Shown piece by piece: positions 30,175 through 61,022 of a stretch of 64,000 bases of DNA (position 1 is its first letter; each line of letters starts with the position of its first letter). The notes below the pieces were generated by a model that saw only the letters and a list, made by a program, of their open reading frames with translations, made no database searches and had not been told where the DNA came from. Source of the stretch: Aquabacterium sp. (GTDB lineage: Bacteria > Pseudomonadota > Gammaproteobacteria > Burkholderiales > Burkholderiaceae_C). A program made the translations under genes and the position numbers. The stretch is taken from assembly GCF_016195855.1 (NCBI RefSeq), contig NZ_JACPYU010000016.1:434001-498000 (forward strand), in the 5' to 3' direction.

Positions 30175-31356
30175 ATGTCTGACTCATCCACCTCTCGATC
30201 CTCAAAGCGCCGGGTTCAGGAGACATCCAGCCCTGGGCGCTCAAGCCAGCACCAACCCGCACGCCGTCAAAGTTGGGCAGGCAAGTCGCCCCAGGACATC
30301 CTGGCCCACTACCCCACAGGCAAGACGCCTCCGCTCAAGGTGCTGGAGGTGTTGATCGAACTGTTCAACACCCTGCATACCTCGATGGCCAAAACCGTCT
30401 CACACAAGACAAGGCAGGAGCGCGCCCAGTTCCTTCGCCGATTCTTTCGAGACTTGAAGACGAAGGCCGGGTTCAAGACGGTGCCTGACCCACGCAACCT
30501 GGGGCAAAAGCACCTCCGGGCCATGGTGCAGGTCTGGCAGCGAGAGCACCTAGCCCCGGCGACGATCCAGACCTACCTGAGCTTTCTGCGTGGGTTGGCC
30601 ATGTGGATGGGCAAGCATGGCTTCGTGCGATCACCAGACCACTATGGTTTGAGCATTGACGAATACCAGCGCCATGAGTACGCCAGCCGAGACAAGGGTT
30701 GGTCGACACAAGGGGTGGACATCGACACCGTGATCACCCAGGTCTGTGACCACGACCGCTTTGTGGGAGCCTCGTTGCGGCTGATCCGCGCCATGGGGCT
30801 GCGGCGCAAGGAATCGGTGCTCTTTCGGCCATTTGAGAGCATCGTGCCCTTCGAGTCCACGGGCCTGCCGCCCGAGGACAAGTTGGCGGATCGGTACGCC
30901 AAGATCAAGGGCAAGGGAGGCCGGGTGCGCCACATCCCGCTGGACAGCTCTGCGCGACTCGCCGCCGTGACATTCGCGCAGGGCGTGGTCAGCAGCCAGG
31001 ATGCCCACATGGGCAACCCAGCCCATGACCTGCGCAAGAACCTCAGGCATTTTGACTACGTGTTGACCAAGTTCGGCATCACCGTGCGCGAACGGGGAGT
31101 GACCGCACATGGCCTGCGCCATGAGGCGCTGATCTCGCACTATGAGGCCCTGGCCGGGACCGCGCCCCCAGTGCGGGGCGGGCAGGTGGTGCCGCCGGAG
31201 CTGGACCGTCGGGCCCGGCAATCCGTGTCGAGGTTAGCCGGGCACGCGCGCATACGGGCTTCGGGGGCCTACCTTGGTGCGGTGCAGGTGCAGCGCCATC
31301 CAGGATCACGTGATGTGGATGGCATGAGCGACGCACCGCCAGAGCGGTCGTCGTGA
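30175..31356 (+). CDS. Integrase-domain (tyrosine recombinase-like) protein
   Basis: Likely the island integrase. A basic, serine-rich 40-residue N terminus precedes an N-terminal SAM-like DNA-binding domain (about 60-170, K-T-V-S-H-K-T-R-Q-E-R-A-Q-F-L-R-R-F-F). The catalytic half shows the first Arg in R-A-M-G-L-R-R-K-E-S, a Lys-containing hairpin (K-G-K-G-G-R-V-R-H-I-P-L), H-G-L-R-H-E for the His-x-x-Arg box, and a candidate nucleophile Tyr in G-A-Y-L-G near the end. This pattern is that of the 'integrase domain' subfamily on proteobacterial islands. It lies about 1.5 kb from the attachment site. Confidence 0.82.
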   Translation: MSDSSTSRSSKRRVQETSSPGRSSQHQPARRQSWAGKSPQDILAHYPTGKTPPLKVLEVLIELFNTLHTSMAKTVSHKTRQERAQFLRRFFRDLKTKAGFKTVPDPRNLGQKHLRAMVQVWQREHLAPATIQTYLSFLRGLAMWMGKHGFVRSPDHYGLSIDEYQRHEYASRDKGWSTQGVDIDTVITQVCDHDRFVGASLRLIRAMGLRRKESVLFRPFESIVPFESTGLPPEDKLADRYAKIKGKGGRVRHIPLDSSARLAAVTFAQGVVSSQDAHMGNPAHDLRKNLRHFDYVLTKFGITVRERGVTAHGLRHEALISHYEALAGTAPPVRGGQVVPPELDRRARQSVSRLAGHARIRASGAYLGAVQVQRHPGSRDVDGMSDAPPERSS

Positions 31357-31417: not shown

Positions 31418-33469
31418 TCAGGCCGCTGACTCCGCGAGTTCATCGACCTCAGAATGGGAATCGTCCAGGCTGGCCGTCTCGACTTCGCCTGTCGCCGCAA
31501 CCGAGGCAGCTTGCCCCCTCAGGCATGACGGCAACCAACCCGACCCAACCAAGGCCAACTCGGCGGCCACCACGGCGGCATCCTTCTTCATACCTGCCAG
31601 CGGCGCTGCCGCGTTGATGTCCACCGCCTCTGTGACCACGTCCACCACGCGGCTCTTGGACACATGGTTCAGGTAGGAAGGGCCGTTGGCGGTCCACCAG
31701 CGGCGCATGTCCAGGCCCAAGGCCTGTGCCAGCACATCGGTGCGTTGGGTCGGTGACTCCACGCCCTGAATGCCTGTGACTGAGCACGCCACCGCCACGG
31801 TCAGCAGTTGGAGCACTGTGGCTTGGTCTTGCGCCAGCAACCACGGGAACACGGCATCCAGATCTTGGGGCAGCTTCTGCGCCCAGGCGCTGCGCTCGGC
31901 CTCCATGCGCAGCCATGCCGGGCTGGCCTCGATGTCATCGGCAGCAGATTGCAGCGCAGACTGGCTGTCCGTGACCGAGACATCCAGCACCTGTGGCTGC
32001 TGGTGGTAGCGATAGTCGCGGCTCAAGAACAGCTTCTGCGCCAACTGGGCCGTGAGCGCCACCAAGGCCACGTCCGGGCGGGCAATCAACTCAGCCTGTA
32101 CGGCGGCGACCCGGTGTGCCGTCAGGCGGCGCATCAGCTTGTCAGAGTGAACCGGTCGAGCCTTGGCCGGTGGGCCGGACAGCATGTCACCTTGCCCACC
32201 GCACTCGCCTGTCTGCCCTGTGCCCTGGGTCAGGACATGGGCCATGGCGCTGCGGTCCTCCGGGCGGATCAGGCCACATTTCACCGTGGCCGCGCCGTTG
32301 TGCCCCACGTGGACCACGCACCCGGCCTGCGCCATCAGGTCGGCGGGCCACACGCTCAGTTCATCGTCGATGGCCTTGAGCCGCAATTGCAAGGCTGCTT
32401 GCTCGCTTTCAAGCTCCTGGTACACCGCGCCATCACCCTGATCGGCGTCATCGTCGTCCATGTCATCCAGCGCATCCAGACGCTGTTGAACGGCCTGCAT
32501 CGCGGCCTCCAGTTCCGCCAGCGCAGTGGCCTCGTGCTCGGTGGGTTCGCGTCGCACTTTGCGCAACTCGACGTGGCCGTTGTACTCGTCACGGTCATAG
32601 CGCACTCGAACGTCCACCCACTTCCAGCCCTCGGCACGCACCTGCTTGGCCTTCTTGTTGAGCTTCTCCATGGCCAGACGTTCCAGCAATGGCGCGTCCA
32701 GCAAGTAAGCCTTCTTGTCGTCGTCGCTGAACAGGTCACGGCGCGTGGCCCCACCGGCCTTCTCGTATGCCTTGAGCGTCACGTACTTCGCCACCGGGTC
32801 ACGGTCGGACTCGATGTCGCCCTGCGTCAGCAACTGACGCAAGTAGTCGGGGCGGCGGTTCCATTGGGGCAAGCCAGCCCAGGCCTGTTCCTGCTTTTCG
32901 TGGTCATCGACCGACGCCAGCACCATCAGGCATTCCAGGCTGATGTCATCCGCCCGGAACTCGTCCATCAGCTTGGGCGACACGCTTGCCAGCTTCATGC
33001 GGCGCTTGACCACCAAGGGTGTGACGCCAAAGGCCGCTGCCACCGTCTCGACGGACTTGCCCTCGCCCAACAGGCGAGAGAAAGCAAGGTACTCGTCGGC
33101 GGCATGCATGGGCACGTGAAAGATGTTCTCGGACAGGCTGGCCATCAGCGCCTTGTCAGCAGGCACGATGAGGATGGGCACAGGGTAGTTGTCGGGGATA
33201 TCGCCGTTGCTCATCAGCAAGTTCAGCGACTCCAGGCGACGGCCACCGGCGCACACTTCAAACAGGCCACGCGGGCCCTTGATGACGATCAGGTTCTGCA
33301 ACACGCCGCAGTCCAGGATGGACGCGGCCAACTCGGCGATGCTCATCTTGCTGGTGCTGCCGCCTGGGCGCACCTGATGGTCTGCCGACAGCACCAGCTT
33401 GTTCAAGGGGGCTGTGGTGCGGGGGGATGCCGCGATCACGGCATCGATCTCTGCCTTGGTGAATTTCAT
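31418..33469 (-). CDS. ParB/RepB/Spo0J-family partition-like protein
   Basis: A 683-residue protein with an N-terminal ParB domain: Q-V-R-P-G-G, I-A-E-L-A-A-S-I, V-C-A-G-G-R-R-L (the GxRR CTP-binding-type motif) and S-E-N-I-F-H-V-P-M-H-A-A-D-E. A helix-turn-helix follows (S-V-E-T-V-A-A-A-F-G-V-T-P-L-V-V-K-R-R). Residues about 330-400 are a charged coiled coil; the last 250 are unfamiliar. ATG at 33469 has AGGAG seven bases upstream; an earlier in-frame ATG lacks one. No ParA partner is next to it, typical of large ParB-like proteins on integrative elements, which may act in maintenance or regulation. Confidence 0.82.
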   Translation of the reverse strand: MKFTKAEIDAVIAASPRTTAPLNKLVLSADHQVRPGGSTSKMSIAELAASILDCGVLQNLIVIKGPRGLFEVCAGGRRLESLNLLMSNGDIPDNYPVPILIVPADKALMASLSENIFHVPMHAADEYLAFSRLLGEGKSVETVAAAFGVTPLVVKRRMKLASVSPKLMDEFRADDISLECLMVLASVDDHEKQEQAWAGLPQWNRRPDYLRQLLTQGDIESDRDPVAKYVTLKAYEKAGGATRRDLFSDDDKKAYLLDAPLLERLAMEKLNKKAKQVRAEGWKWVDVRVRYDRDEYNGHVELRKVRREPTEHEATALAELEAAMQAVQQRLDALDDMDDDDADQGDGAVYQELESEQAALQLRLKAIDDELSVWPADLMAQAGCVVHVGHNGAATVKCGLIRPEDRSAMAHVLTQGTGQTGECGGQGDMLSGPPAKARPVHSDKLMRRLTAHRVAAVQAELIARPDVALVALTAQLAQKLFLSRDYRYHQQPQVLDVSVTDSQSALQSAADDIEASPAWLRMEAERSAWAQKLPQDLDAVFPWLLAQDQATVLQLLTVAVACSVTGIQGVESPTQRTDVLAQALGLDMRRWWTANGPSYLNHVSKSRVVDVVTEAVDINAAAPLAGMKKDAAVVAAELALVGSGWLPSCLRGQAASVAATGEVETASLDDSHSEVDELAESAA

Positions 33470-33748
33470 GAGGGGCTCCTGCACGGTTGAGGGACATGCC
33501 TTGTGCGCGTCCATGCATTCAGAATCTCATCCGCCCCTCTGAAATCAAGGTCGTGGACATGGCCGTCCACAGGCCCTCAATCCACTCCACCCATCGATCC
33601 ACAAGGAACTTTGTGGCCGCAACCCTTCCTTGAAGCGCTGTACCATTTCCACTGTTTCGGTCTGGTTGCCACGCGCGCAGATCACCCACCCTTGATCGGT
33701 CAGGACACGCTGTAAGTACGCGCCGATATTCACCGACGAGGTCTTTCG

Positions 33749-36700
33749 TTGAACGCATCGGCTACCGCTCCGCTTTCTGTCCTGCGCTTCTGGCGTGACC
33801 TGGAAGTCTTCAACATCCCCACCGCACCATCGGCCAAGGACAGCAGCGACCAGGTCAAGATCGTCACGCTCAGGCGCGGCGATGTCCTGCCTTGGCAACA
33901 CCCTCACTTTCAGCCAACACAAGAGCATGGCTACGTCCATGTCGTCTATGTGGGCGTGGCCGACACGGAGGACCTCTCCCGGTTGATGCTGCAATCGGTG
34001 TTCCCCGAGGAAGACCTCAGCGAGCGCGAACGCCAGCGCGCAACCGGAAACGGCTGGCTTGCTGCCTTCGTCGCCAACGAAGATGGCCACCCCAAGCTCG
34101 ACAGCTACCTGCCTGCCAGCTTTGCACACGGGGTCGATGCGCTGTGGCATTCCGAGCCGCTGGAGAACGTCAACGCCCGACTGGCACGTGCCACCGATGA
34201 GTTCGGTCAACGACGCCACCACCTTCGGCCCGTCGCCACCGACGCGCAGCAAACACCGACCACTGGCCAGCCGGACACCCCACCAGCGCCAAACCCCTTG
34301 ACCTGGGGCGATCTGGACGAAGAGTTGCGCGCCGTGTGCAAGCTGCTGGGCCCAGGGGCCGATGCGGCTGGTCTGGACTGGCGTGTGGTGGTTCGGGTGT
34401 CACGGGTCAAGCGCCGTTTCCTCGACGACAGCCTCAACGCCGCCATCGACTACCTGAACTCCTTCTACCTGGATGACCTCAACCGCCTGATCACTCAGGG
34501 GGGCAAGAACAAGCCTTTTGGCAAAGCCCTGAGCACTTTTCTGGGCGCGCCCATAGCACCCGAACAACGCATCGACATCCTGAACGACCACGCGGCCATG
34601 GGTGAACTGGTGAGCGTGGCCCGCTTGCCCAGCGCTCGTTGGCCAGCCTCACCAGAGGCCCCGCTGGTGCTGGCTCAGCAGGCCGCGGTGGCCCAGGTGC
34701 TCAGCACCTTGGGACGCGATGGCGGCACGCTGGGCATCAACGGCCCACCGGGCACGGGCAAGACCACCTTGCTGTGCGACGTGATCGCCGAGGTGGTCAC
34801 AGAGCGCGCACGCAAGATCGCCGCGCTCAGCCGCCCCATCGAGCTGTTCGAAGACAGCGTGAGCGTGGCGGGCAGGAATTTCTTCCCCCTCAAGGCCAAG
34901 GTGGTGGGCGGCTCGTCCATCGTTGTGACCAGCACCAACAACAACGCGGTCAAGAACATCACGCAAGAGCTGCCTGCACGCGAGAAGGTGCACAGCGACT
35001 TTGCCTCGGCCACCTACTTTGACGAGGTGATCCGAGAGGTGTTCGCGGCCCAGAAGGTGGTGGACGACGACAAGCAACCCATCGACTGCTGGGGCCTGGT
35101 GGCTGCCGCATTGGGCAACGCCGGGAACCGCCGATCTTTCGCCCGGGGATTTTTTCGGGACGAAGCGCGTCAGGCACCCAACACCGAGACGTCATCGCCC
35201 GGCAATGCACAAGTAGACGATGCCCCAGGTGCGGCCGCTCAAGCTAGCACGCCTGCGCCCGCCGATCCGTTGCCACCGTCGATCAAACAACTGCTGGAAG
35301 CGGCCAGCAACGACTACACGCGCTATCAGGGCGAATGGCATGCGGCCAAGAAGTCCTTCCTGGCGCTGCTGGATGACTTCGATGCCCGCCGTGGCGTCTT
35401 GCTTCAAGCTGAAAAAGCGGCTCAGCGGATCGATGCCTGCCAACTGCGGGTCAATGCCCAGCGTGATGCCGTGCAGGCCCTGGCCGAAGCCATCGACCAA
35501 GCCAGCCGCCACCTCAAACAGCTTCAGGACAACAAGGCCATCCAGCATGCCTTGGTCGATTCCCGCCGGGCCACGCTCGACCAGGCGCGTTCACAATGCC
35601 TGCCCAAGCTTTGGGACAAGCTGTGCGCTTTGTTTGGGCAGGACACCGAACGCATGAAGACGCTGCGCGCCACGCTGGTCGAGCCCACGCTGGCCTTCGC
35701 ACAATCCACCGAAGCGCTGGCCCAACTGGCGCAGGATGGCGCCATGGCCGAGGCACGGCTTGAGCAACAGCGCGAGGCGCACCGCACCCAGGTCTTGACA
35801 CTACAGGGTTCCGAGCGCGAACTGCAAGGCCACCAACGTGCGCTGAAAGCCGGACACGACGCCGGGGCGCGGCACTTCCCCAACGCCAGTTTCTGGCAAC
35901 TGCCCGCCGATCAGCGCCATCGCGCGTCGGTGGCGGTCAGCCCCGCGCTGGACGCACTGCGGGCTCGCATCTTCCTGCAAGCCATGGAGCTGCACCGACT
36001 GACAGTGCTGGCCAACGCAGGCAAGTTCATCGGCAACCTGCGCGCCGTCAACGGCATGCTCACCGGTTCGCTGAAAGACAAGCTGTCCTTGGAGCAGCGC
36101 CCCCTGTTGTGGGACGCCTTCTTCTTCATCGTGCCGGTGGTCTCGACCACCCTCGCCTCATTCGACCGCCTGTTCGCTGGCATGGGTCAGGACAGCCTGG
36201 GCTGGCTGCTGATCGATGAGGCAGGACAAGCCACCCCGCAATCTGCAGCAGGTGCCATCTGGCGCAGTCAGCGGGCAGTGCTCGTGGGCGATCCCTTGCA
36301 GATCGAACCCGTGTTCACCGTGCCCCTGATGCTGGTCGAAGAGTTCCGCCGCCGCCACGCCGTGGACCCCTTGTGGTCACCCAATGACGAATCGGTTCAG
36401 ACCCTGGCCGACCGTGTCACCCGGCATGGCTCCTGGGTCGCATCCCAAGTCACGGGCACCGTCGTAGATTCGGAGAAGGCTCAGCCCATTTGGACAGGCA
36501 TGCCCTTGCGCACGCACCGTCGCTGCGACGATCCCATGTTCAACGTGGCCAACCGCATCGCCTACGCCGAACAGATGGTGCATGGCCGTGTGGACGATCA
36601 AGGCCAGCCTGAGAAAACGAAGTTCACCTGCGTGCTTGGTGACAGCGCCTGGCTGGACGTTCGCGCCACCCGCGCCAGCCATCCGGTCGTCGAAGACGAA

Positions 36701-37162
36701 CTCCATGTCCTGGTGAACTGCCTGCGCCAACTTCAACAGCAACCGGCGTTCACACCTGCCAGGAAGGCCGGAGGCAAGGACAAGGCCGCCAAGGTGTTCG
36801 TGATCTCGCCGTTTCGCAAGGTCAAGAACGCCTGCATCAAGCGGATCAAGGATGCAGGGTTGGGCCAGATCGAATGCGGAACCGTGCACACCTTCCAGGG
36901 CAAGGAAGCAGAAATCGTGTTCCTGGTGCTGGGCACGGCCCCTGGTCAGGCCGGGTCAGGAGCGCGTGCCTGGGCCTCGGGCAAGCCCAACCTGCTGAAC
37001 GTGGCCATCACGCGGGCCAAGCATCGCCTGTATGTGATCGGGGATGCCTCGCAATGGGGTGGACTCAACCACTTTGACCAATTGGCCGAAGACATGCCTG
37101 CCCGACAAACCCCATCAACGCCCCGGTCGTTTGACGCCATTGCTCATGAAGCCCGCCTCTAG
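33749..37162 (+). CDS. Superfamily 1 (Upf1-like) helicase/ATPase with coiled-coil insertion
   Basis: A 1137-residue protein. Walker A (G-P-P-G-T-G-K-T-T-L-L) begins at residue 332; Walker B (L-L-I-D-E-A-G-Q-A) is near 820, followed by G-D-P-L-Q-I-E-P (motif III). The C-terminal RecA lobe has V-H-T-F-Q-G-K-E-A (motif V) and V-A-I-T-R-A-K-H-R-L-Y-V-I-G-D (motif VI). About 200 residues of predicted coiled coil (about 515-720) separate motifs I and II. The N-terminal 300 residues (R-F-W-R-D-L-E-V-F-N-I-P) are unfamiliar. TTG at 33749 with GAGG upstream is the likely start. Its end overlaps the next, convergent gene by 48 bases. Confidence 0.85.
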   Translation: MNASATAPLSVLRFWRDLEVFNIPTAPSAKDSSDQVKIVTLRRGDVLPWQHPHFQPTQEHGYVHVVYVGVADTEDLSRLMLQSVFPEEDLSERERQRATGNGWLAAFVANEDGHPKLDSYLPASFAHGVDALWHSEPLENVNARLARATDEFGQRRHHLRPVATDAQQTPTTGQPDTPPAPNPLTWGDLDEELRAVCKLLGPGADAAGLDWRVVVRVSRVKRRFLDDSLNAAIDYLNSFYLDDLNRLITQGGKNKPFGKALSTFLGAPIAPEQRIDILNDHAAMGELVSVARLPSARWPASPEAPLVLAQQAAVAQVLSTLGRDGGTLGINGPPGTGKTTLLCDVIAEVVTERARKIAALSRPIELFEDSVSVAGRNFFPLKAKVVGGSSIVVTSTNNNAVKNITQELPAREKVHSDFASATYFDEVIREVFAAQKVVDDDKQPIDCWGLVAAALGNAGNRRSFARGFFRDEARQAPNTETSSPGNAQVDDAPGAAAQASTPAPADPLPPSIKQLLEAASNDYTRYQGEWHAAKKSFLALLDDFDARRGVLLQAEKAAQRIDACQLRVNAQRDAVQALAEAIDQASRHLKQLQDNKAIQHALVDSRRATLDQARSQCLPKLWDKLCALFGQDTERMKTLRATLVEPTLAFAQSTEALAQLAQDGAMAEARLEQQREAHRTQVLTLQGSERELQGHQRALKAGHDAGARHFPNASFWQLPADQRHRASVAVSPALDALRARIFLQAMELHRLTVLANAGKFIGNLRAVNGMLTGSLKDKLSLEQRPLLWDAFFFIVPVVSTTLASFDRLFAGMGQDSLGWLLIDEAGQATPQSAAGAIWRSQRAVLVGDPLQIEPVFTVPLMLVEEFRRRHAVDPLWSPNDESVQTLADRVTRHGSWVASQVTGTVVDSEKAQPIWTGMPLRTHRRCDDPMFNVANRIAYAEQMVHGRVDDQGQPEKTKFTCVLGDSAWLDVRATRASHPVVEDELHVLVNCLRQLQQQPAFTPARKAGGKDKAAKVFVISPFRKVKNACIKRIKDAGLGQIECGTVHTFQGKEAEIVFLVLGTAPGQAGSGARAWASGKPNLLNVAITRAKHRLYVIGDASQWGGLNHFDQLAEDMPARQTPSTPRSFDAIAHEARL

Positions 37163-37567
37163 ATGTTCAAAGCGTGTCCATGTGTCTTTCTTGAGGAAGG
37201 ACACCGTCGCATCGTCATCCAGCCCTTGGCGAAAATTCATTTCCTCCTGAATGATCGCATCGGCAATGGCGATGCACCACTCAGGCGCGTACTGGGTTTC
37301 GTCTAGAAGAACGTTGTCTTGGCGCCCGGAATTCACCGCCAAGCAGGCTTTGTCCCACCAACGAATCACCCTGAGCAGCTCGTCCTTCAGACCAGGCTTC
37401 TCTGGGAGTTTCCCAGCTATGCACGATGTGCTGAGGGCATCAATGGCTGAGCGACGAGCGAGTTGCTTCAGCCGGTCCTCCTCATGATGCGCTTCACACA
37501 AGCCTCCCAGGAACGGAGCCTCCTCACAGCCCCATCGTCTGCAGGTCAGCGTTTTCTTTCTTCCCAC
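37115..37567 (-). CDS. Unknown protein with N-terminal Cys/His cluster
   Basis: A 150-residue protein I do not recognise. The N terminus (C-R-R-W-G-C-E-E-A-P, then G-G-L-C-E-A-H-H) offers three cysteines and a histidine suited to zinc binding. The rest is largely helical. It is the last gene of the minus-strand run headed by the TIR protein, 30 bases after the previous gene, and its 3' end overlaps the helicase gene tail-to-tail. Confidence 0.6.
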   Translation of the reverse strand: MGRKKTLTCRRWGCEEAPFLGGLCEAHHEEDRLKQLARRSAIDALSTSCIAGKLPEKPGLKDELLRVIRWWDKACLAVNSGRQDNVLLDETQYAPEWCIAIADAIIQEEMNFRQGLDDDATVSFLKKDTWTRFEHLEAGFMSNGVKRPGR

Positions 37568-37597
37568 GTTGTACCTTTCGTGTTGACACCAGTTGCG

Positions 37598-38317
37598 TCA
37601 GCTGCGCAATCCAAACACATCATTCGCAGCAAACAACAATGTCGGTCCCGGGCACCATGCCGCCTGGTCATCCGACGGCAGTTCATGGGGAAACGGCACC
37701 ATGTTGAGTTCGTAGAGGTGCAGCATGCCTTCTATGGGCATGTAACTGCCATCCAGCTTTGAACACGTTGGGCAAGCATGGCGTGAGCCGACGGCATGCA
37801 CGTCATGGTTCTTCAACATCCTGGATCGCCGCAACACCTCATAGTTGCGACTGAGGGCCCGAACGAAGCCGCCGACAGCTAAGTTGTCGCAAACCCCCAT
37901 GAGCGCGTCCAATCCTTCGTTGGCGACCCGATAGTCAGGTGATGACGCCATGAACAGTGCGTCCACAATAGGCATACAGCCCAAGGTAAGACCTGCCAAA
38001 TCCGGCATGAAGCTCACTTCACTGAGGGTTGGCAAAAAGCGGTTGAAATCGGGGGCACTCATGTGATACCCATTGAGCTCGATATCCCGTTCCTGCGCGA
38101 TCAAGCGGTTGGCAGCATCGACCCGGTCTTGCTCCATCTGGAAAGGGGACCGTCCTGCCTGACGCGCCTGGACGATCTGAGCCAGCGTCTCCGCCTCCAC
38201 CTTGTCCATCAGACGTTTGTAATCAGGCTCGGTCAGGGTCAGATACGCGCCGACAAGTCCATTGATCTCAGTCCTGATCTTTTGCTTGTACCGCTCTTCC
38301 TCAGGTGTCAGATGCAT
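37598..38317 (-). CDS. Unknown protein with C-terminal CxxC segment
   Basis: 239 residues. The N-terminal 80 residues are helical and charged; the C-terminal part has H-A-C-P-T-C-S-K-L-D-G-S-Y-M-P-I-E and P-F-P-H-E. A C-P-x-C-x-x-L-D-G pattern occurs in the C-terminal domain of phage head-morphogenesis proteins (Mu F/SPP1 gp7 type), but the resemblance is short and the context does not fit, so I do not assign it. It is 21 bases after the 77-residue gene upstream. Confidence 0.6.
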   Translation of the reverse strand: MHLTPEEERYKQKIRTEINGLVGAYLTLTEPDYKRLMDKVEAETLAQIVQARQAGRSPFQMEQDRVDAANRLIAQERDIELNGYHMSAPDFNRFLPTLSEVSFMPDLAGLTLGCMPIVDALFMASSPDYRVANEGLDALMGVCDNLAVGGFVRALSRNYEVLRRSRMLKNHDVHAVGSRHACPTCSKLDGSYMPIEGMLHLYELNMVPFPHELPSDDQAAWCPGPTLLFAANDVFGLRS

Positions 38318-38338
38318 ATGCCTTGTCCACAGTCCGCG

Positions 38339-38572
38339 TCAATCGCTGACGCTGAAGTTGATGGCGCTGATCGGGATCCGAGCGTGCAGGCATTCTGGAT
38401 CTGTCAGCCACTGTGGCAACAAGGACAGCTCAAGATGGATGGGGATGGAGGCATCTTCCATGGTCCCCTTTGTCAGGGCATGGACCAGCGCCTGGCGATC
38501 ACGGGAAGACAGGTGAAAGTTGAGCATCGCGCCATCGGATCGATGGCGAACGTAGATTTCAATACCGCTCAT
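38339..38572 (-). CDS. Small unknown protein
   Basis: 77 residues, no recognised family. It begins M-S-G-I-E-I-Y-V-R-H-R-S-D-G-A-M-L-N-F-H-L and ends with alternating hydrophobic residues, suggesting a small alpha/beta fold. It lies within the minus-strand TIR gene run, 184 bases after the 297-residue gene and 21 bases before the 239-residue gene, and probably starts a second transcription unit. Confidence 0.55.
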   Translation of the reverse strand: MSGIEIYVRHRSDGAMLNFHLSSRDRQALVHALTKGTMEDASIPIHLELSLLPQWLTDPECLHARIPISAINFSVSD

Positions 38573-38649
38573 GTTCGGCGCCTACACACACGTAGGTGTT
38601 GATTGTGCCCACGGTGCAGGACAGGTGTCATTCACCCTGGCGGGCAAAT

Positions 38650-38672
38650 TTATCCACAGAAACTGGGGATAA
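38650..38672. promoter_or_regulatory. DnaA-box-like site in an imperfect dyad
   Basis: A perfect TTATCCACA (38650-38658) faces GGGGATAA (38665-38672), whose complement is TTATCCCC, with six bases between. It lies in the 184-base gap upstream of the 77-residue gene. It could be a promoter-proximal operator or a DnaA site; isolated 9-mers also occur by chance. Confidence 0.35.
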
Positions 38673-38756
38673 CTTACCGCATTGGAGGGCAATTGTCCGC
38701 CTGCCCATAGCAGAAACCTCGGGCTGCTCCTTTTTGGGGCAACCCTTGCCAAGGGC

Positions 38757-39650
38757 TCAACGCGCCCAACCCAGATCACGAAGCACAAACCCAAGGGCCT
38801 CGATAGCGAAGGCACCATCGGCGTCCGTGACGTCGCGGGTGCCCAGACGCTGCTGCTCATTGGACTTGCCCCTGGGGTGGAGCTTGCAGACGACATCTGC
38901 TGCTGCACGAAACAGCTTTGATTCCGGTGGCAGCTTCGCAATCAACGCGCCAAGGTCCTTTTCAATGACCTTCGCATCCTCCCCGGCATCCAGATGAAGG
39001 TGCGCGGACAAGATCACGCCCATCGCATCTCGGCAGAGGTCCACCACAGTGATGCCACTAGATCGATGCGCGCCGTCTACCACCTTGATGACGGCGGCGC
39101 TCACACGCTCTCTCGCTGCTGACGGAATGGCATCCAAGACCAGATCGGGCAGAAAACCGAGGTTCGAGCGGGCACGCATTGTCACCACATCCTCGTCGTT
39201 GCCCGACCGCTCGACTGAGACGATGTTCCAGACTGTGACTGCCGCCCCCGCACCTAGAACGACCAGCGTGCGTGGCGTGGTCACCAATCGCTGACTCACA
39301 TTGCCCATTGGGCTGAACGAAATGAGCGACTTGGTGAATCGCCCTTCATGGGCTTGGTGACCGACATCCTCGGGCAAGACCGGGTGCTTGTGGACCCACC
39401 ACTGATCAGGCTGTTGCCGCCCCGCCACCTCGTAGAACCGGCCCCGCCTGATGCGACTGACAGGGTCGAAGTAATCTTCCCTGAAGACGCACATGGCGCT
39501 GCGAAGAGCACCGCTGCAGGGCACTTTGCGCCAGTCGGCCTCAGCCTGAACGAAGGTGGCAACAGAAACCATCGGGGCTGGTGAGACGCCATGTCCGTGG
39601 TTGGACAAGCCTTCGTACATCAGCCAGGTGTTGGGGTCGAACGCAATCAT
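38757..39650 (-). CDS. Unknown protein, possible HEPN/abortive-infection-like C terminus
   Basis: 297 residues. The N-terminal 150 residues are of mixed secondary structure (W-L-M-Y-E-G-L-S-N-H-G-H-G, G-R-F-Y-E-V-A-G-R). The C-terminal 120 residues are helical, with V-D-L-C-R-D-A-M-G-V-I-L-S-A-H, D-L-G-A-L-I-A-K-L and a terminal G-F-V-L-R-D-L-G-W. That terminal pattern reminds me of Abi-type/HEPN-like modules, but no R-x4-6-H motif is clean, so this is a weak suggestion. It lies 79 bases after the PD-(D/E)xK-like gene in the same direction. Confidence 0.55.
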   Translation of the reverse strand: MIAFDPNTWLMYEGLSNHGHGVSPAPMVSVATFVQAEADWRKVPCSGALRSAMCVFREDYFDPVSRIRRGRFYEVAGRQQPDQWWVHKHPVLPEDVGHQAHEGRFTKSLISFSPMGNVSQRLVTTPRTLVVLGAGAAVTVWNIVSVERSGNDEDVVTMRARSNLGFLPDLVLDAIPSAARERVSAAVIKVVDGAHRSSGITVVDLCRDAMGVILSAHLHLDAGEDAKVIEKDLGALIAKLPPESKLFRAAADVVCKLHPRGKSNEQQRLGTRDVTDADGAFAIEALGFVLRDLGWAR

Positions 39651-39729
39651 GTGTTGGCGATTGAAGAAAGTTGCTCAGCAGGCCATTGAGCCCAGGAAAG
39701 ACGAGACAAATGCATGAACCTACCGCCCT

Positions 39730-40749
39730 TCAGGCGCGCTCCCTGACCGACATGAGCGTGCGCACCAACAGAAAGTCCTCAGGGGCATCAATGAGCAGCT
39801 CGCCGTCGGTCGCCACATGTACCTCTGCAACCCGCGCGTGAGAAAGCATGCCCTTGGCAATCGGGCGACGTGCAAATGGGTTGTGCAGCACGTAGGCGCC
39901 GTCGAGCAAGTGCTCCTCGTAAGCAGCCTTCAACGTGGCCTTGATCCTGGGCTTGATGTCATCGCCATTGGGGTGATAGGTGGTGTAGACCGTCTTTGCC
40001 AACGGGTTGTCCGCCAACGCACGCACTTTCCCCCAGGTAGCCAGGGAGCTGTACACGACAGCGGAGACTTCAGCATATTGGTCGTCGCAGAACAAGCCGA
40101 GCGGGATGTCAACGGTTTCCGACTTCGCAGCAGAACTGACGTTGTAGCTGACAACACGACGCGCTCCTCTCGGCGTTGCACTTTCATCGTGGTACAGACC
40201 ATAGAGTGCAGCAAAGATTGGACGACTGGCCGCGAAGTGCGCAAGCGGGCGATCAAAAGCGCCAATGCCGATGACAAAAGGCTTGTCAGCGACATGGGGC
40301 AAGGTCGAGTAGTAATTGCGATAGCGCCTGACTTTGGCATTGAAGCTATTACAAATCCGCAAAGCCGCCTCTCTGTTGAACTCAGTGAAATCGTCTGGAA
40401 TGTCTGCGATCGAATATCCGATGGGGGCCTTCCCGCCTTTAGCTGGCGCGGCAATGGCCGCCTCGACGCACAACGGCATCGGTTCACCAACCACAAAATC
40501 GGGAGAGGCAAAGGACATATCGGGGGACAGCCCCCAGCCCCTCAAAGCGGCATTGAGATACAACTCCCAAAGACCTGACTCAAAAGTCATCTGAAATTCC
40601 TGTACGAACTTCCCGTCGCGGTCTTCAAATCCTCTAGCCCAAGCATTGAGCACGGCACGCTCAGGCGCGTACTGTTCGTCCAGCAGCATCCTGAAAACCT
40701 GATGCTGCCGGGCCGTTTCCACTTGCGGGGTGAACAGATCGAATGTCAT
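39730..40749 (-). CDS. Unknown protein, possible PD-(D/E)xK nuclease fold
   Basis: 339 residues. The N-terminal half has F-E-S-G-L-W-E-L-Y-L-N-A-A-L, then S-P-D-F-V-V, then L-C-V-E-A-A-I-A. Glu 62, Asp 84 and Glu 96 could form the metal-binding E...D...(E/Q)xx core of restriction-endonuclease-like folds, although the usual lysine after the final Glu is absent. This is an inference from spacing only. It starts 13 bases after the TIR gene, so the two are almost certainly co-transcribed and may act together. Confidence 0.6.
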   Translation of the reverse strand: MTFDLFTPQVETARQHQVFRMLLDEQYAPERAVLNAWARGFEDRDGKFVQEFQMTFESGLWELYLNAALRGWGLSPDMSFASPDFVVGEPMPLCVEAAIAAPAKGGKAPIGYSIADIPDDFTEFNREAALRICNSFNAKVRRYRNYYSTLPHVADKPFVIGIGAFDRPLAHFAASRPIFAALYGLYHDESATPRGARRVVSYNVSSAAKSETVDIPLGLFCDDQYAEVSAVVYSSLATWGKVRALADNPLAKTVYTTYHPNGDDIKPRIKATLKAAYEEHLLDGAYVLHNPFARRPIAKGMLSHARVAEVHVATDGELLIDAPEDFLLVRTLMSVRERA

Positions 40750-40762
40750 TGTTCCCTTTGGC

Positions 40763-41728
40763 CTACTGCAATTGCTTGATCAACAGCTCCCAGAAGAACT
40801 CAGCGAGTCCCTCGTGAGAAAGCTTGTCATCCCTTCCCCTGTGCATCGCCATGCCCAAAGGTTTGAAGTACATGGCCTGATCGTCCTTGTCCACAGACAC
40901 CATCTCGTTGTAACTGCCTGCCGGTGCAGAAGGATCTGACGAATAGGTGATCCCACCGCTGCGGAACCCCAAAGCACCAAGACGGATACCGCACTGGCTA
41001 ACTTTCTTGCCGTCACGGTAGATCACGCCACTGAACGCATTGGCGTCTATCCGACGAAAGACGCCTTCGACGCCCGTCGTTCTGGCTTGCAATTCAGCCA
41101 GAGATCCTTCAAAAAAACGCGCCAGGTAATCAAATGCGGCATGCAGGAATTCATCCTGGTCACGCTCGGTGAACTCCTTGCGCATGCGCAGGTTGCTGGA
41201 TCGAGGCAGCGACACCTGTTCTGCTCGAACAGGGCTGGCCACTGCAGGCGGCTGAGCCCTGCTGACGGTACCCGCGTCATGAGCACGCCCGCCCAGTTGC
41301 GTCACAACAGCCCGGATACTGCGCGCCACGTCGGTGTAAGCCTCGTCGTGGTTGGCCCACATGGTGATGGCCTTGCCATCCTTGGGTACCGCCATCAAGC
41401 CACTGAGGGGCGGTTGCTGCCAATCGCAAGGCCGAACGATCACCGGAATGACTTGCGCTTCCCCCCTGCTCTGGCGCTCCAGCGCACGCGCCATTTCAAT
41501 GGAATAGCAGTAGCGCGAGGACAAAAAACTCGCACTCACCAGCAGCAAGATCACATCCGCCTGGTTCAACTGATCGTCAATGACCTGGTTGAGGTCGGCG
41601 CCCGCCAGGATACGACGGTCATGCCAGGATTCGATCAGCCCCTCATGTCGGAGCAACGCCAGGTGCTTCTCCAGTTGGTCCCGGTATGCCTCATCGTCAT
41701 GCGAATAGGAAAAGAAAACCTTGGCCAT
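40763..41728 (-). CDS. TIR-domain protein
   Basis: 321 residues. The first 130 are a TIR_2-type domain: K-V-F-F-S-Y-S-H-D-D (residues 3-12), W-H-D-R-R-I-L-A-G-A, V-I-L-L-L-V-S-A-S-F-L, and Y-C-Y-S-I-E-M-A with Glu 78 at the catalytic position of bacterial TIR NADases. A serine/glycine-poor linker leads to a 110-residue C-terminal domain (R-K-E-F-T-E-R-D-Q-D-E-F-L onward) that I do not recognise and that may sense a trigger. ATG at 41728 is chosen because the TIR fold starts immediately; earlier in-frame ATGs would add 36 unrelated residues. It heads the minus-strand gene run. Confidence 0.85.
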   Translation of the reverse strand: MAKVFFSYSHDDEAYRDQLEKHLALLRHEGLIESWHDRRILAGADLNQVIDDQLNQADVILLLVSASFLSSRYCYSIEMARALERQSRGEAQVIPVIVRPCDWQQPPLSGLMAVPKDGKAITMWANHDEAYTDVARSIRAVVTQLGGRAHDAGTVSRAQPPAVASPVRAEQVSLPRSSNLRMRKEFTERDQDEFLHAAFDYLARFFEGSLAELQARTTGVEGVFRRIDANAFSGVIYRDGKKVSQCGIRLGALGFRSGGITYSSDPSAPAGSYNEMVSVDKDDQAMYFKPLGMAMHRGRDDKLSHEGLAEFFWELLIKQLQ

Positions 41729-41915
41729 GCGTGTCTGTGGATTCGTTGAAGTTTGGGGCAGGGTTTGCCCCTTGCTGGCACTCGCGCACAACGAGTGCCA
41801 AACACTATATCTAGTTATTCTCGCGCACTCAAGCACTACGGGTAGTGCCCACCACAGAGGCCACTCGCTGACTCGTGCGGACGCCGAGCAGTTTCATCGG
41901 TGAAAATACGTGACC

Positions 41916-43013
41916 ATGAACGAATCAAAAACCTTGGCAGACATCGGCAAAATTGGTGGGATAGATTGGCGACGCCAATTACCTGACACCTTGGTGCAGT
42001 CCATGATGAAGGCCTCCGACGTCACTGCGGGCTGGCGCAAGCATCTGGACGCGCTAGGGTCGGCGGCGGACCTCCAACGCATCTTGCGTCAGCACGAAGG
42101 GCTCAGCGCGCATGCTGCGGCGATCCGCGCAGCGCAACTGAGTCAGCAGCAGATGCTGGGCAAACAATACGCGGACATCCTTGCCAAGGCCGCTCCTTTC
42201 ACAGGAAACGCGGCGTTGTTTGGCGATCTTCAACGGCAAGTTGACGCCGCTTCCAGCAGCGTTTCAGTTGAGTTAATGCGCATGGTTGACGACATGTCCA
42301 GGGGCACCGCATTGAAGGCGGCAATGGACATGGCCAAGGCTTGGCAAGATCCATTCGAAGACATCCGAAAGAGCCTGCTGGGATATCAAGCGCCGTTTCA
42401 AAGACTGACTGAAAAGGCGCTCATCGATTCCATCGCCAAGTCGGGCTTTCACGCCAGCCTCAAGAGCACCGATTTCAGCGCCGTTTGGCAAGAGTTAGAC
42501 GCCAAGCTCAAGGCGCAAGCATCCTTGACAATGCGGACCATCGCTCACGAGGCTGCCGAACAACCGACCCCAGAAGCTGCTCTTCAACAAATCCTGGCAG
42601 CCATTGCCCAGACAAGCGAGCCCAAGCTGCAGAAGGTGCTGTGGCTCATCGTTGTTCCCATGGTGTTTCTGCTGCTCAATGCGTTCTTGGCGCCTATCGG
42701 CGACTTCTACGTCAAGAGGTTGCTGGAAGAAAAGCCTCGCCAAGAGGCGCACAAAGCGGTCAAGCAAGCTGCGTCGGATACCGTGGGAGACCTGAGGCTC
42801 TTGAGCGACCACCGCTACGTTGCCACGCAATCCCTGATGGTTCGCTCAAGTGCGTCGGCCCGATCACCAGTCATAGGTCAGCTCCACTTTGGCCAGGCCG
42901 TGCATGTTCTACAGAAAAACAAGGACTTCACGCTCGTTTCGTGGACCAGCCCTGACCACACATCCGTCATTCGAGGTTGGGTTTTTTCTCGGTATTTGAA
43001 GCGCTTTGACTGA
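41916..43013 (+). CDS. Single-pass membrane protein with C-terminal SH3-like domain
   Basis: About 365 residues. The first 235 are helical and probably coiled coil; one transmembrane helix follows (about 245-265, L-W-L-I-V-V-P-M-V-F-L-L-L-N-A-F). The last 65 residues resemble a bacterial SH3 domain (L-M-V-R-S-S-A-S-A-R-S-P-V-I-G-Q-L, then G-W-V-F-S-R-Y-L). ATG at 41916 is used; a GTG two codons before is possible. It is divergent from the TIR gene with about 190 bases between. Whether it belongs to the TIR group is unknown. Confidence 0.68.
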   Translation: MNESKTLADIGKIGGIDWRRQLPDTLVQSMMKASDVTAGWRKHLDALGSAADLQRILRQHEGLSAHAAAIRAAQLSQQQMLGKQYADILAKAAPFTGNAALFGDLQRQVDAASSSVSVELMRMVDDMSRGTALKAAMDMAKAWQDPFEDIRKSLLGYQAPFQRLTEKALIDSIAKSGFHASLKSTDFSAVWQELDAKLKAQASLTMRTIAHEAAEQPTPEAALQQILAAIAQTSEPKLQKVLWLIVVPMVFLLLNAFLAPIGDFYVKRLLEEKPRQEAHKAVKQAASDTVGDLRLLSDHRYVATQSLMVRSSASARSPVIGQLHFGQAVHVLQKNKDFTLVSWTSPDHTSVIRGWVFSRYLKRFD

Positions 43014-45927: not shown

Positions 45928-46284
45928 CTTGGCGAAATTTCAGGCCCGTGTCACGGCTTTGGCCACCCACTGAAACAAGATTTCTGTACTGAACTTCAGG
46001 TGATATTCAGCTATCACCCAGGCGTGCACTCAACAATGACCCGGTTCCATGGGGCCTTGTCCATGGCATGCAGCGATCAAGGCTTGAACGCTTCTGACCA
46101 TCACGACACACTGCCCACCGCTACATGCATTCCATCGCGGAATGCGCTCCGACCTTGAGTCGGCGTCGCAGTCGTCACCTGCCTCATTGACCGTGCTGAC
46201 CTCGCGTCAGCACATCCCGAGCGGGAACATCCATCCCCTCGGGACAGGACGTTCCCGCTTTTCCTTTTTGTGAAGGAGAAATCC
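45928..46284 (+). promoter_or_regulatory. Structured leader of radC, homologous to the 43,276 leader
   Basis: 357 bases without a gene. It repeats three elements of the first leader in the same order: the 23-base motif (46162-46184), a GCTGAC-type hairpin with a perfect eight-base stem (46193-46200 with 46206-46213), and a G-rich hairpin with a perfect eight-base stem (46221-46228 with 46251-46258). The last is followed by TTTTCCTTTTT, so it looks like a terminator or attenuator placed only about 15 bases before the AAGGAG of radC. Confidence 0.62.
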
Positions 46285-46866
46285 GTGAATGTCACCCACT
46301 TGTCCAGTGCCGAACTGGTCAGCGAGTTACTCGCCGCACCTGTTCGCCAAGCCCCACTCCCTTTGCCATGCGCCTGCGATGCTGCAGCGACGTACCAGGC
46401 CTTTGAGCACGCTCCCCCAGAGCTGGCCTACAAACTCAGCGTCGCACGCGAACTGCTGCTGCGCGACATGCGCGCCAAGATGCTGGACGGCCCAGTCATG
46501 GCCTCGCCCAAGGTTGTGAAAGACTGGCTGAGCATGTACTGCGCCGGGTTGGAGCACGAGGTGTTCCTGGTGCTTTACCTTGACGCGCAGCAAGTCCTGA
46601 TAGAGGCCGAAGAGCTGTTCCGGGGCACGCTGACCCAGACTTCGGTTTACCCACGCGAGGTTGTCAAAAGATCCCTGGCCCACAACGCGGCATCCGTTTT
46701 GTTGGCCCATAACCACCCGAGCGGTCAATTGTCGCCAAGCAGTGCAGACGAGCTCTTGACCCAGACGCTGAAATCCTCTTTGATGATGGTGGACGTGCGC
46801 GTGCTCGACCACTTCATCGTGGGAGGTGACCGCGTCCTGTCTTTTGCGGAACAGGGTTTGCTGTGA
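46285..46866 (+). CDS. radC: RadC/MPN-domain protein
   Basis: 193 residues with the JAB1/MPN metalloprotease-like core of RadC: the first Glu in L-E-H-E-V-F-L-V-L-Y-L-D, H-N-H-P-S-G as the zinc-binding JAMM box, then D-V-R-V-L-D-H-F-I-V-G. The N-terminal helix-hairpin-helix of housekeeping RadC is replaced by a short unrelated segment, typical of island-borne copies. GTG at 46285 is chosen since AAGGAG lies seven bases upstream. Function is unproven for the family despite its name. Confidence 0.88.
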   Translation: MNVTHLSSAELVSELLAAPVRQAPLPLPCACDAAATYQAFEHAPPELAYKLSVARELLLRDMRAKMLDGPVMASPKVVKDWLSMYCAGLEHEVFLVLYLDAQQVLIEAEELFRGTLTQTSVYPREVVKRSLAHNAASVLLAHNHPSGQLSPSSADELLTQTLKSSLMMVDVRVLDHFIVGGDRVLSFAEQGLL

Positions 46867-47241: not shown

Positions 47242-47276
47242 GGGCGTCGCGCCATCAGGCCGACGCCCATTTTTTT
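47242..47276 (+). terminator. Terminator of the radC-DUF5983 unit
   Basis: Perfect eight-base stem (47242-47249 with 47261-47268), 11-base loop, then A and seven T. It starts 10 bases after the DUF5983 stop and overlaps the end of the convergent SbcC-like gene. Confidence 0.82.
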
Positions 47277-49741
47277 GCTCCATCCTCGGTCACCCCGTGA
47301 TCGCGCATCGCATCCAGGTCGATCACGGCGTCGGCCATGGCGGTCAACTCCGGCGTTTGAGACACAAAGAACTCCCGCTGGTAGCCGCCCACGCGCAGCA
47401 CCTCGCGCTTCATGGCCATGAACATGCGTTTGCGCTCCGGGTCCAGCGCCCCATCGGCTTCGTCCGAAAACAAGGCGTCGTAGCGCCGACCGGCATGCTG
47501 TGCCAGGTACAGCGCCACCGCCCGCGTCAGGCACTCGTTGACCCACACGCGCTCCCCTCCGCTCATCAGGCCCAGGCTCTTGCTGTCCCCCGACTCGCCG
47601 TCATGCACGACGATGTCAAAGCCCTCGCGTTGCTCGCCCTTGCCTGTCTCCACCAGCGTGAGGATGGACACGGAAAAGCGTGGCCCATAACAGGCCAGCA
47701 GCAAGTCATTGGCCAAGCCAGACAAAGCTGGTCCTGCATCGTCAATGGCCAGGGCGATCAGGCCATCGTTGCTCATGCATCGGGCAAACAGGTTCCAACT
47801 TCCCAAGCTGTCCTCCGCTCGGGCCATGCGAGATTGCACCTGCACACGCCGGTCAGCCAGGGCCCGCGCCTGAGCCATCAATTCAATCCTGGACTGGGCA
47901 TCGCGCTCGGCGGCCAGGTGGGCTTGCTCTGCGGTGGACAAGGCCAGGCGCTCTTGGGCCTCAGCCTGGGCGGCAGCGGCCAGCATCTGATGGTCAAAGG
48001 GCGTTGGCAACCCCTGAAGCACCGCATCCAGGCGATTGAGCGCCTCCCGAAAATGCTGCGCCTGTTGCACCAGCGCCTGCGCGATCCGCTGTCGTGTTGC
48101 CTCGATCTGTAGGCGCTCGGCCTGCTCTTCGGTCGTCTCGTTGCCTTGGGTCCGGCCAAGCTCTGCCATCAATGAGGACAGTTCAAGCTCAAGGGTCTGC
48201 AAAGCGGTGCGGGCTTGGCTGATCTGGCCTGCCCTGGTCGCCAGCAGCGACAAGCGAGACACCCGTGTTCGAGCCATATCGACCAAGCGTTCGACCCGGG
48301 CCAGCGCTTGCGGCGCCTGGGCCAGCTCTTCGTACCGATGGCGGATCAGGGAGAGTTCCTGTTCTGCCAGGGACTTGTCCTGCGCCAGGCGACTGATCTG
48401 GCCTTGTGCGCTGGGCATCAGAGACTGGGCTTCATGCGCATCCCCCAGCAGCTTGCATTGCCCTTGCAGATCAGTGCCCGCACAAGGCACCTCACCGACC
48501 AGGCCAAAGCGGTGCGCCAACTCCTGGGCCTTCAAAGCCGCCCTGCCTGCCTCCAGTTCGATGCTGGCTAGCTTCTGCACTAGCAGTCGTTCCGTGGCCT
48601 GTGCATCCCTCATCGCCTGCACCTGCTGTCGGCACACAACGATCTCCTGTTGCCTGGCACTCAGCACCAGTTCAGCCAGAGGCAGGCGATGTGCCGCACG
48701 CTGGACCGTGTCAGCTTCTTCCAGCACGTTCAGGCACTGGCGACGTGATTGCATGAGCGCGCTTTGCCGAGACTGCGCTTGCGTGCGCCTACTGTTGATG
48801 CGTTGCGCCAAGCGCTCCAAGCCTTGCAAGGCATCCTGCTCTTGAGCCTTGAGCCCCTCGATGGCTCGCGTGCCGGCAACGATCAACGCCTTGCGCTCCT
48901 CAAGCAACTGCGCACGACGCGCCTCGGTGCTCTGTGACTGATCCCGTTGTGCCTGCAAGCGGGCATGGCCAACCCGATGCCCATCCAATGCCTGCTGCGC
49001 TTGTTCTCGCTCAATCAAGGTCTGCGCAACTCGGTCGGATGCACCTTGCAAGCGATGCAGTCCCGCATCCAGGCGAGCATGCTCCGCATCTAGGCCGGCC
49101 AACTCCTGCCTGATGGACGACAGCCCGGCCTTGATCAGTTTGGCGGTGTCATTGGCCTTTTGCCCCAACGCTCGGATTTCTTCCTGGCCGAGCAAGTCGG
49201 ACAGCAGGCTCTTGATCTCGGCATTGCGGTAGGTGCTGAGTTGGCGCTTGCCCTGCGCTGAGAACGCGGAGGTGAAGAAGGTATCAGCGCTGCCACAAAT
49301 GGATTCCACACAGCGGCTGTAGGTCTCGACCTTGCCATCGGACACCAGACCATCGTCGAGACAGACGGGGCGCCATTGGCCCTCATCACTGAGTGCATGC
49401 AAATAGGCCTCGGTCTTGCGGCGCCCGTTGAGCCGGATCACCACTTGGGATCGATAGCACCTGCCTTCATGTGACCAGGTCAGATCCTTTTCGTTTTCCG
49501 GTAGACAGACATGGTCGTAGTAGGAAAAGCCGCCGGGGCCGCTCAAGGCCGCCCGTGACGGCATCGTCAGATAGGGGTGCATGTTGTCCATCAGCGTGGT
49601 CTTGCCCCGCCCATTGGCCCCTGCAATGGCGACGAGTTCAGCGCCATCGGCCAGGCGCTCGAAGTCCAGGGTCAACACGTCTTGCCCCAGGCCATAACGG
49701 ATGCCCCGAAAGCCTTTGAGGGTGAGTTTCAGTGGTTGCAT
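47255..49741 (-). CDS. SbcC-like SMC-family ATPase
   Basis: 828 residues. Walker A G-A-N-G-R-G-K-T-T at residues 41-49; two long coiled-coil arms (about 190-380 and 420-640) around a C-A-G-T-D hinge resembling the zinc-hook region, where only one clear cysteine pair candidate is seen; ABC signature S-G-G-E-R-V-W at about 727; Walker B/D-loop D-E-A-D-G-A-L-D near 759. This is the architecture of SbcC/Rad50. Its nuclease partner lies 8.7 kb upstream on the same strand, with a cargo block between. Confidence 0.82.
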   Translation of the reverse strand: MQPLKLTLKGFRGIRYGLGQDVLTLDFERLADGAELVAIAGANGRGKTTLMDNMHPYLTMPSRAALSGPGGFSYYDHVCLPENEKDLTWSHEGRCYRSQVVIRLNGRRKTEAYLHALSDEGQWRPVCLDDGLVSDGKVETYSRCVESICGSADTFFTSAFSAQGKRQLSTYRNAEIKSLLSDLLGQEEIRALGQKANDTAKLIKAGLSSIRQELAGLDAEHARLDAGLHRLQGASDRVAQTLIEREQAQQALDGHRVGHARLQAQRDQSQSTEARRAQLLEERKALIVAGTRAIEGLKAQEQDALQGLERLAQRINSRRTQAQSRQSALMQSRRQCLNVLEEADTVQRAAHRLPLAELVLSARQQEIVVCRQQVQAMRDAQATERLLVQKLASIELEAGRAALKAQELAHRFGLVGEVPCAGTDLQGQCKLLGDAHEAQSLMPSAQGQISRLAQDKSLAEQELSLIRHRYEELAQAPQALARVERLVDMARTRVSRLSLLATRAGQISQARTALQTLELELSSLMAELGRTQGNETTEEQAERLQIEATRQRIAQALVQQAQHFREALNRLDAVLQGLPTPFDHQMLAAAAQAEAQERLALSTAEQAHLAAERDAQSRIELMAQARALADRRVQVQSRMARAEDSLGSWNLFARCMSNDGLIALAIDDAGPALSGLANDLLLACYGPRFSVSILTLVETGKGEQREGFDIVVHDGESGDSKSLGLMSGGERVWVNECLTRAVALYLAQHAGRRYDALFSDEADGALDPERKRMFMAMKREVLRVGGYQREFFVSQTPELTAMADAVIDLDAMRDHGVTEDGAKKWASA

Positions 49742-59726: not shown

Positions 59727-61022
59727 TCATGTCACCCGGTGCAGTTCGCTCTCGATCTTGTCGAGGTAGCCCTGCGGGTCGTTGCGATAGCGATCCAGTT
59801 CATCCCAAGCACGGCGACGACCATGCGGGTTAAGCCGCCACCCTCGGCCCCACCGTCGGTCGGCGTAGGCCTGGTATTGGTCCGCAGCAATGCCATAGGC
59901 TTGGGCACGCGCCAGGAGGTGTTCCAAGGTGAGATCCCCGTCGTGCACCGGGGCGTCCTTGGGTGCCTCAGCGATCACCGACGCCACAACGGCATCCACA
60001 TCGGCATCCACATCGGCACCAGCACCCTCCCACGTTGGGGCCCCATCCAGGACCTGAGTGGCCAGTTGCGCTTGAACAATGGCCGTGTCTTCGTCCTCCC
60101 TGTCACGCAACAAGGCGGTCACATCCACAGGCGCTTCCAATTCGATGATCCATTGCGGCACACGGGTGGGCAGGCCCGTCTCGTCGATGTGGGCAACCTC
60201 CATCAAGCGCTTGGTCAGGTAAAACGGGGTGCGTTGCCGATCCAGAAAGCCAGAGATACGACCGCCACGCAGAAAGCCGATGGTTTCGAACTTCTGGATG
60301 GCCGCGTTCATCGCGTAGAAGCTGTTTGTAGGCAACTCGAACGCACTGATGGAGCGGATACCCGGGATGAAGAACAGGAACCGCCCGGTCAGGTTGCAGC
60401 GCCGCTGCTGGTAGTCAGCGCAGGACTCGGGCTCGCAAATGCCGCCGTTGTCTTCGCGCAGAACCGTCTTGCGCCCACCGAAGATGCGGATAGAGCGCCG
60501 GCCCGTGTTGTCCATGGGCACAGGTGCATGGCACATGCAGTGGCGCACACGGCCATCAGCCGAATACTGCGACCAGTAGCGCTTGTCCTGCGCCCCCCAG
60601 GCCGCGAGTTCATGCGGCATCACGGTCTGCCACTGGTCAGCCGGAAAGACGATGGGGAAGCGATAGAGGTGAAGGCCTTCACCACGGTCCTCGCCATAGG
60701 CTTGCAGGATCTGCTTCGGTGTCTCGGGATTGGGGAAGTCTTGTGCCCGCACGGTAAACCAGGGCACGTTGCGCGGGATCAGCGGTGACTTGAGATGCGG
60801 GAGCGCACCCACGATGGCGCGCTCGATCTGGTCGAAGGACTGGCCGGCTTCAACGCCCTCGTCGTAGAGGCTTTGAGCCTGGGGCTGCTCCGCCGCCTTG
60901 CGGGTGAGCACCTTGATGCCTGCGCGGATCTTTCCGCCTGTGGGGATGCGGGCGGGGCCTTGCCCGAGCAGGGTCGGCAGGGCCGCCGAACCGCCCTGGA
61001 CGGTGACAGTGGTTTTGACCAT
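59727..61022 (-). CDS. Unknown Cys-rich protein, possible recombination-directionality-like (Gp3-like) family
   Basis: 431 residues. The N terminus K-I-R-A-G-I-K-V-L-T is followed by V-P-W-F-T-V-R and a Y-R-F-P-I-V-F-P segment. A central cysteine cluster (R-H-C-M-C-H-A, then G-I-C-E-P-E-S-C-A-D-Y and R-R-C-N-L) could bind zinc. The overall layout reminds me of phage Gp3-type recombination directionality factors and of proteins often labelled metal-binding on islands, but I cannot confirm this by eye. It heads the operon with the SbcD-like gene, 12 bases apart, and has palindromes in front of its start. Confidence 0.5.
   Translation of the reverse strand: MVKTTVTVQGGSAALPTLLGQGPARIPTGGKIRAGIKVLTRKAAEQPQAQSLYDEGVEAGQSFDQIERAIVGALPHLKSPLIPRNVPWFTVRAQDFPNPETPKQILQAYGEDRGEGLHLYRFPIVFPADQWQTVMPHELAAWGAQDKRYWSQYSADGRVRHCMCHAPVPMDNTGRRSIRIFGGRKTVLREDNGGICEPESCADYQQRRCNLTGRFLFFIPGIRSISAFELPTNSFYAMNAAIQKFETIGFLRGGRISGFLDRQRTPFYLTKRLMEVAHIDETGLPTRVPQWIIELEAPVDVTALLRDREDEDTAIVQAQLATQVLDGAPTWEGAGADVDADVDAVVASVIAEAPKDAPVHDGDLTLEHLLARAQAYGIAADQYQAYADRRWGRGWRLNPHGRRRAWDELDRYRNDPQGYLDKIESELHRVT

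Follow-up and report, generated by a model that had tools for sequence, protein, structure and literature searches.

The run of six genes between positions 37115 and 41728 of the window (the 64,000-nucleotide stretch of Aquabacterium sp. DNA which was analysed) raises the question of whether genes this closely arranged on one strand constitute a single defence system. A first-pass annotation had proposed one undescribed system headed by a TIR gene, and the six minus-strand ORFs on which it was based were all found to be present. The first two are separated by 13 bases (40750–40762), as had been noted, with the remaining gaps downstream in the run being 79, 184, 21 and 30 bases, and the last gene overlaps a convergent helicase gene by 48 bases. 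Purifying selection was detected on five of the six genes, with dN/dS values against genus relatives of 0.03–0.10 for the TIR gene, 0.05–0.06 for full-length p297, 0.03–0.05 for p150, 0.15–0.21 for p239 and 0.29–0.38 for p77; the gene encoding the 339-aa protein, comparable to more distant relatives only, lies outside this set. Profile searches, which had been suggested as a check, assigned the first two genes of the run to known families (ThsB and PD-T7-5) and gave no family match for the other four. Pfam detected TIR domains in the 321-aa protein and had no match in the other five, while NCBIfam and PHROGs added no function for the run proteins beyond the two named by PADLOC. On the evidence below, the run is very probably a stack of separate defence modules, held in a slot of an integrative element whose cargo varies.

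The leading gene (40763..41728, minus strand) encodes a TIR protein of 321 aa as counted from an ATG codon, the longest ORF beginning with GTG at 41836. The protein matches the PADLOC ThsB model (PDLC00420) over its full length (434.8 bits, residues 1–321) and consists of a TIR domain (~1–145) followed by a conserved C-terminal domain (~175–321), for which PF27176 is the precomputed assignment in TIR relatives among the 120 matches listed. Glu78, previously put forward as the catalytic residue, does not vary across an alignment of 50 sequences that includes the window protein. The family is large, with 5704 proteins at E ≤ 0.001 among 7998 scored. The gene set had earlier not been recognised as a named TIR system. 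This stands insofar as no ThsA, cyclase or Argonaute match was obtained, but the TIR protein does belong to the ThsB family of Thoeris. CBASS and pAgo systems were ruled out, ten proteins having been scanned with no cyclase or Argonaute match.

Thoeris resembles the locus in the full-length ThsB match and the conserved Glu78, and differs from it in that no ThsA was recognised beside the TIR gene, either in the window or in the relatives examined. Profile scans of nine proteins neighbouring the TIR protein gave no SIR2, SLOG, macro-domain or ThsA match, and no ThsA was recognised in the TIR neighbourhoods of relatives, where many neighbours are unnamed. Plasmid loci were represented by 11 of the 49 records with a match; no SIR2 protein was annotated in these stretches, whose gene tables are incomplete with many hypothetical neighbours. 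The full-length match would be expected if the TIR protein were a true ThsB with its ThsA partner elsewhere in the genome. However, a search of 15 TIR-bearing genomes for ThsA of the SIR2_2 type (macro-domain and other ThsA types lying outside it) gave a match in nine, and only that of G604 lay near the TIR gene (2.4 kb), this protein being PDC-S65 and not ThsA; the match in G427 was on the TIR contig at a distance of 37 kb. In the genome containing the window the sole SIR2_2 match was a 291-aa ORF on another contig, with no PADLOC match at 1e-10. No STALD match was found either, which shows little, as the control also gave none. A true ThsB working with a distant ThsA is highly improbable, and the TIR protein is a portable effector rather than a proven part of Thoeris.

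Portability is also seen outside the genus, where nine genomes carry a full-length or nearly full-length copy. In G528 the TIR gene lies within a type I restriction-modification (R-M) operon (HsdR-HsdS-TIR-HsdM), in G527 it is 7 kb away from an N6_Mtase match, and the other seven have no such match on the TIR contig; two of the copies, with an internal stop (G643) or on a contig of 3.2 kb (G153), say little on context. These counts leave out partial TIR-domain matches (G629, G484, G264, G224, G221, G170, G205 and G187) and a second full-length TIR of G315 (C88, L106) which is 44% identical. A reverse transcriptase (RT) gene precedes the TIR relative in two of the 11 plasmid loci, the one RT scanned being PADLOC RT_VI. 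The available part of PMC10952713 names a retron and TIR combination, which these two plasmids resemble; the window differs, since none of the ten proteins scanned at 30–43 kb, around the TIR gene, matched an RT. A gene of ~161 aa was observed after the TIR gene on pNGR234a and in G681 (L100:5870-6355 and L060:4983-5468, 50% identity) and is a possible TIR partner. Three stretches of viral contigs fitted a pattern, none of them encoding a TIR relative.

The organization of the slot became apparent from a DNA search over 61 genomes, 37 of them from the genus (the genome containing the window included), after which the stretches around the matches were compared. The TIR gene was present in six of 42 genus genomes and p297 in ten, one of these a remnant. 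Conservation of the neighbourhood, another check proposed at the outset, proved partial: TIR, PD-T7-5 and p297 occur together only in the near-identical copies G000, G311 and G319, and other partners are found elsewhere. In G000 and G311 the order is TIR, PD-T7-5, p297, the p77-p239-p150 trio and the helicase, and G319 has the same gene set spread over two contigs. A type I R-M operon follows the TIR gene in PD-T7-5's place in G315, G302 and G309. It is succeeded by p297 in the first two, G315 having HsdM-YhcG-HsdS-HsdR, p297 and the trio, and G302 having an incomplete operon with truncated hsdS and hsdR (HsdS 1–206 and HsdR 126–984 only), p297, a bSEFIR gene and p215; in G309 the contig stops within hsdR. 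The R-M operon and p297 occur without TIR in G300 and G328 (followed by bSEFIR), in G324 (up to the contig end, with a short YhcG frame) and in G314 (a p297 remnant followed by the trio). In G317 a PDC-S28 helicase precedes p297 and bSEFIR, with no TIR or R-M within the stretch examined, and G335 retains just a 31-residue p297 end, p239, p150 and the helicase. Downstream of p297 there is thus either the trio or a bSEFIR gene. Separately, G314, G328, G300 and G324 (L053, L054, L055, and L056 with L046) were observed to carry, in place of TIR, three genes that diverge from the R-M operon and encode proteins of 343, 390 and 569 aa.

The homology of the window to its relatives breaks off beside the stop codon of the TIR gene and restarts just before the p297 start codon. 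Since homology ends near gene borders and partners are exchanged, these genes appear to be independently swapped cargo modules. Divergence also differs by module, with dS of 0.13–0.33 for the helicase, 0.62–1.04 for full-length p297 and, for TIR, ~0.63 against G315 and G302 and a saturated 3.2 against G309, as would be expected of a mosaic. The direction of exchange is one we infer, and the exchange history is based on about ten loci from one genus. A single six-gene system was ruled out by the exchanged contents, and the earlier proposal of one undescribed system could not be upheld, its two leading genes falling in known families and its partners differing elsewhere.

The slot is bordered by the superfamily 1 helicase gene (AAA_11/AAA_12; 33749..37162, plus strand) in every genus relative examined whose contig extends to it. 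The helicase aligns only to the middle of PADLOC MkoC (residues 303–1101), and may be a defence gene itself or part of the element backbone. On the other side, an SH3-domain protein (41910..43013, plus strand) is encoded divergently from the TIR gene. Integrative-element genes around the slot encode a tyrosine recombinase (30175-31356), a ParB-like protein (31418-33514), a RadC-like protein (46270-46866), an AAA_23/SMC_N-like ATPase (47255-49741) and a Gp3-like recombination directionality factor (59727-61022). Together with the ThsB and PD-T7-5 matches, these bear out the original suggestion of defence genes on a mobile element. A search for near-identical plasmid DNA gave no match.

The second gene (39730..40749, minus strand) encodes a protein of 339 aa which is a full-length match to PADLOC PD-T7-5 (PDLC04110; 338.5 bits, residues 4–335 of 339, profile 2–341 of 346), with 151.9 bits against PD-T7-1. 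PD-T7-5 probably acts as a single-gene system. It reportedly goes back to Vassallo et al. in 2022. The suggestion of a possible PD-(D/E)xK protein was partly supported by P83, D84 and E96, which are invariant in 15 aligned PD-T7-5 rows, as is K139. It is further favoured by the placement of PD-T7-5 under PD(D/E)XK in the accessible part of PMC10952713. It did not hold for the lysine of the ExK motif, which reads EAA, EAT or EAV in the 15 rows, with Ala, Thr or Val at the canonical lysine place. The PD-T7-5 profile gave nothing credible against the PDB. The window protein thus shares with PD-T7-5 its full length and PD-(D/E)xK-like core residues, and differs in that its gene sits behind a TIR gene.

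This arrangement would fit a two-gene, Thoeris-like system in which a nucleotide signal from the TIR protein activates the PD-T7-5 nuclease in place of ThsA, and the shared strand, the 13-base gap, the intact pair in all three copies and the ThsB-family membership of the TIR protein are consistent with it. However, PD-T7-5 is probably a single-gene system, the R-M operon stands after TIR in three genus relatives, and the 339-aa protein lacks a known signal-binding domain, since no Pfam or NCBIfam domain was found in it. Moreover, among 15 PD-T7-5 loci in genome contigs, one (L002) is of the window's own kind and none of the other 14 has a TIR match at 1e-4 within the sequence covered, six of these (L005, L007, L009, L010, L012 and L016) having short flanks. 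Three of the 92 plasmid records with a PD-T7-5 match were examined and had no annotated TIR, one of them being wholly unannotated. An established two-gene system is accordingly very unlikely. Under the reading of stacked modules, the two genes are probably co-transcribed in the window through recent juxtaposition, and, as none of the three copies shows signs of decay, each being intact and having the gap of 13 bases, a newly acquired cooperation may exist.

The third gene, p297 (38757..39650, minus strand), encodes a protein of 297 aa with an N-terminal beta domain and a C-terminal HEPN helical fold, which supports the HEPN-like end noticed in the first-pass annotation. H258 and K262 are invariant in an alignment of 65 rows, and R260, D204 and R207 nearly so. 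The canonical Rx4-6H RNase motif was not found, there being no Arg 4–6 residues before H258 in the window protein, and in this p297 differs from canonical HEPN RNases. The window protein has no match in Pfam, PADLOC, NCBIfam or PHROGs, its profile found nothing credible in the PDB by sequence, and a plain Foldseek search gave nothing below 1e-3, the top rows being weak ones to cereblon and Lon N-terminal domains.

Outside the genus, three of six genomes (G286, G439 and G659) have p297 directly 3′ of hsdS in an hsdM-bearing operon, and within the genus it follows hsdR. The HsdR of G286 (L111:1210-4707, 1165 aa) was observed to have a match to Y1_Tnp, an IS200-like transposase, at residues 808–902 (26.4 bits). 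These positions beside hsdS/hsdM or hsdR, together with the HEPN fold, are shared with PrrC/RloC and other R-M-linked HEPN proteins, whereas p297 has an N-terminal beta domain where PrrC/RloC have an ABC ATPase. The positions, and the precedent of PrrC as a guard with R-M in the available part of PMC2610378, are in keeping with an ancestral unit of p297 and the R-M operon, with p297 as a PrrC-like RNase held by R-M and the window as its decaying remnant. However, p297 is under strong selection and is intact in G317, G302 and the three window-type copies, in all of which R-M is absent or broken, which argues both against a toxin needing silencing by R-M and against decay, and we regard this explanation as rather unlikely.

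We read p297 as an R-M-linked HEPN effector which has been separated from R-M in the window. The theme is already known, as the accessible portion of PMC3710099 reports a link to R-M for at least 16 clades of HEPN proteins; this and the available part of PMC12839542 were the literature consulted for R-M-embedded HEPN proteins of this kind. It is tentatively suggested, at somewhat below even likelihood, that p297 is the founding member of a family, as yet undescribed, of HEPN effectors with two domains that are embedded in type I R-M operons, with the beta domain as sensor and a rearranged H-x-R-x-K active site. It would provide a second line of defence once restriction is blocked, and would have been released from R-M here to act beside TIR and PD-T7-5.

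The remaining genes, p77 (38339..38572), p239 (37598..38317) and p150 (37115..37567, GTG start), all on the minus strand, encode proteins of 77, 239 and 150 aa for which no family was found. They travel as a block and are an element-specific module. The spread of p239 is narrow, with seven homologues, one of these a fragment. Its C-terminal motif CPTC ... WCPGP recalls a zinc site, and its profile gave nothing credible against the PDB; p150 has a Cys/His-rich N terminus.

The run is thus best described as four modules, namely a ThsB-family TIR protein with no identifiable ThsA beside it, a PD-T7-5 nuclease-like protein where relatives have a type I R-M operon, the p297 HEPN protein which ends or follows that operon in relatives, and the element-specific trio. 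Gene content, families, exchanged contents and selection were observed directly, and all biochemical activities are those we infer. The C-terminal domain of the TIR protein would sense infection, upon which Glu78 would cleave NAD+ or convert it to a signal; PD-T7-5 would be a DNA nuclease acting alone, and p297 an RNase-type backup. The locus is composite cargo, and every part of the run to which a name could be given is a defence gene. It calls for caution, in that a tight run of genes on one strand need not be one system, the modules here having been exchanged separately, and it offers p297 as a new and testable candidate family of R-M-linked HEPN proteins.
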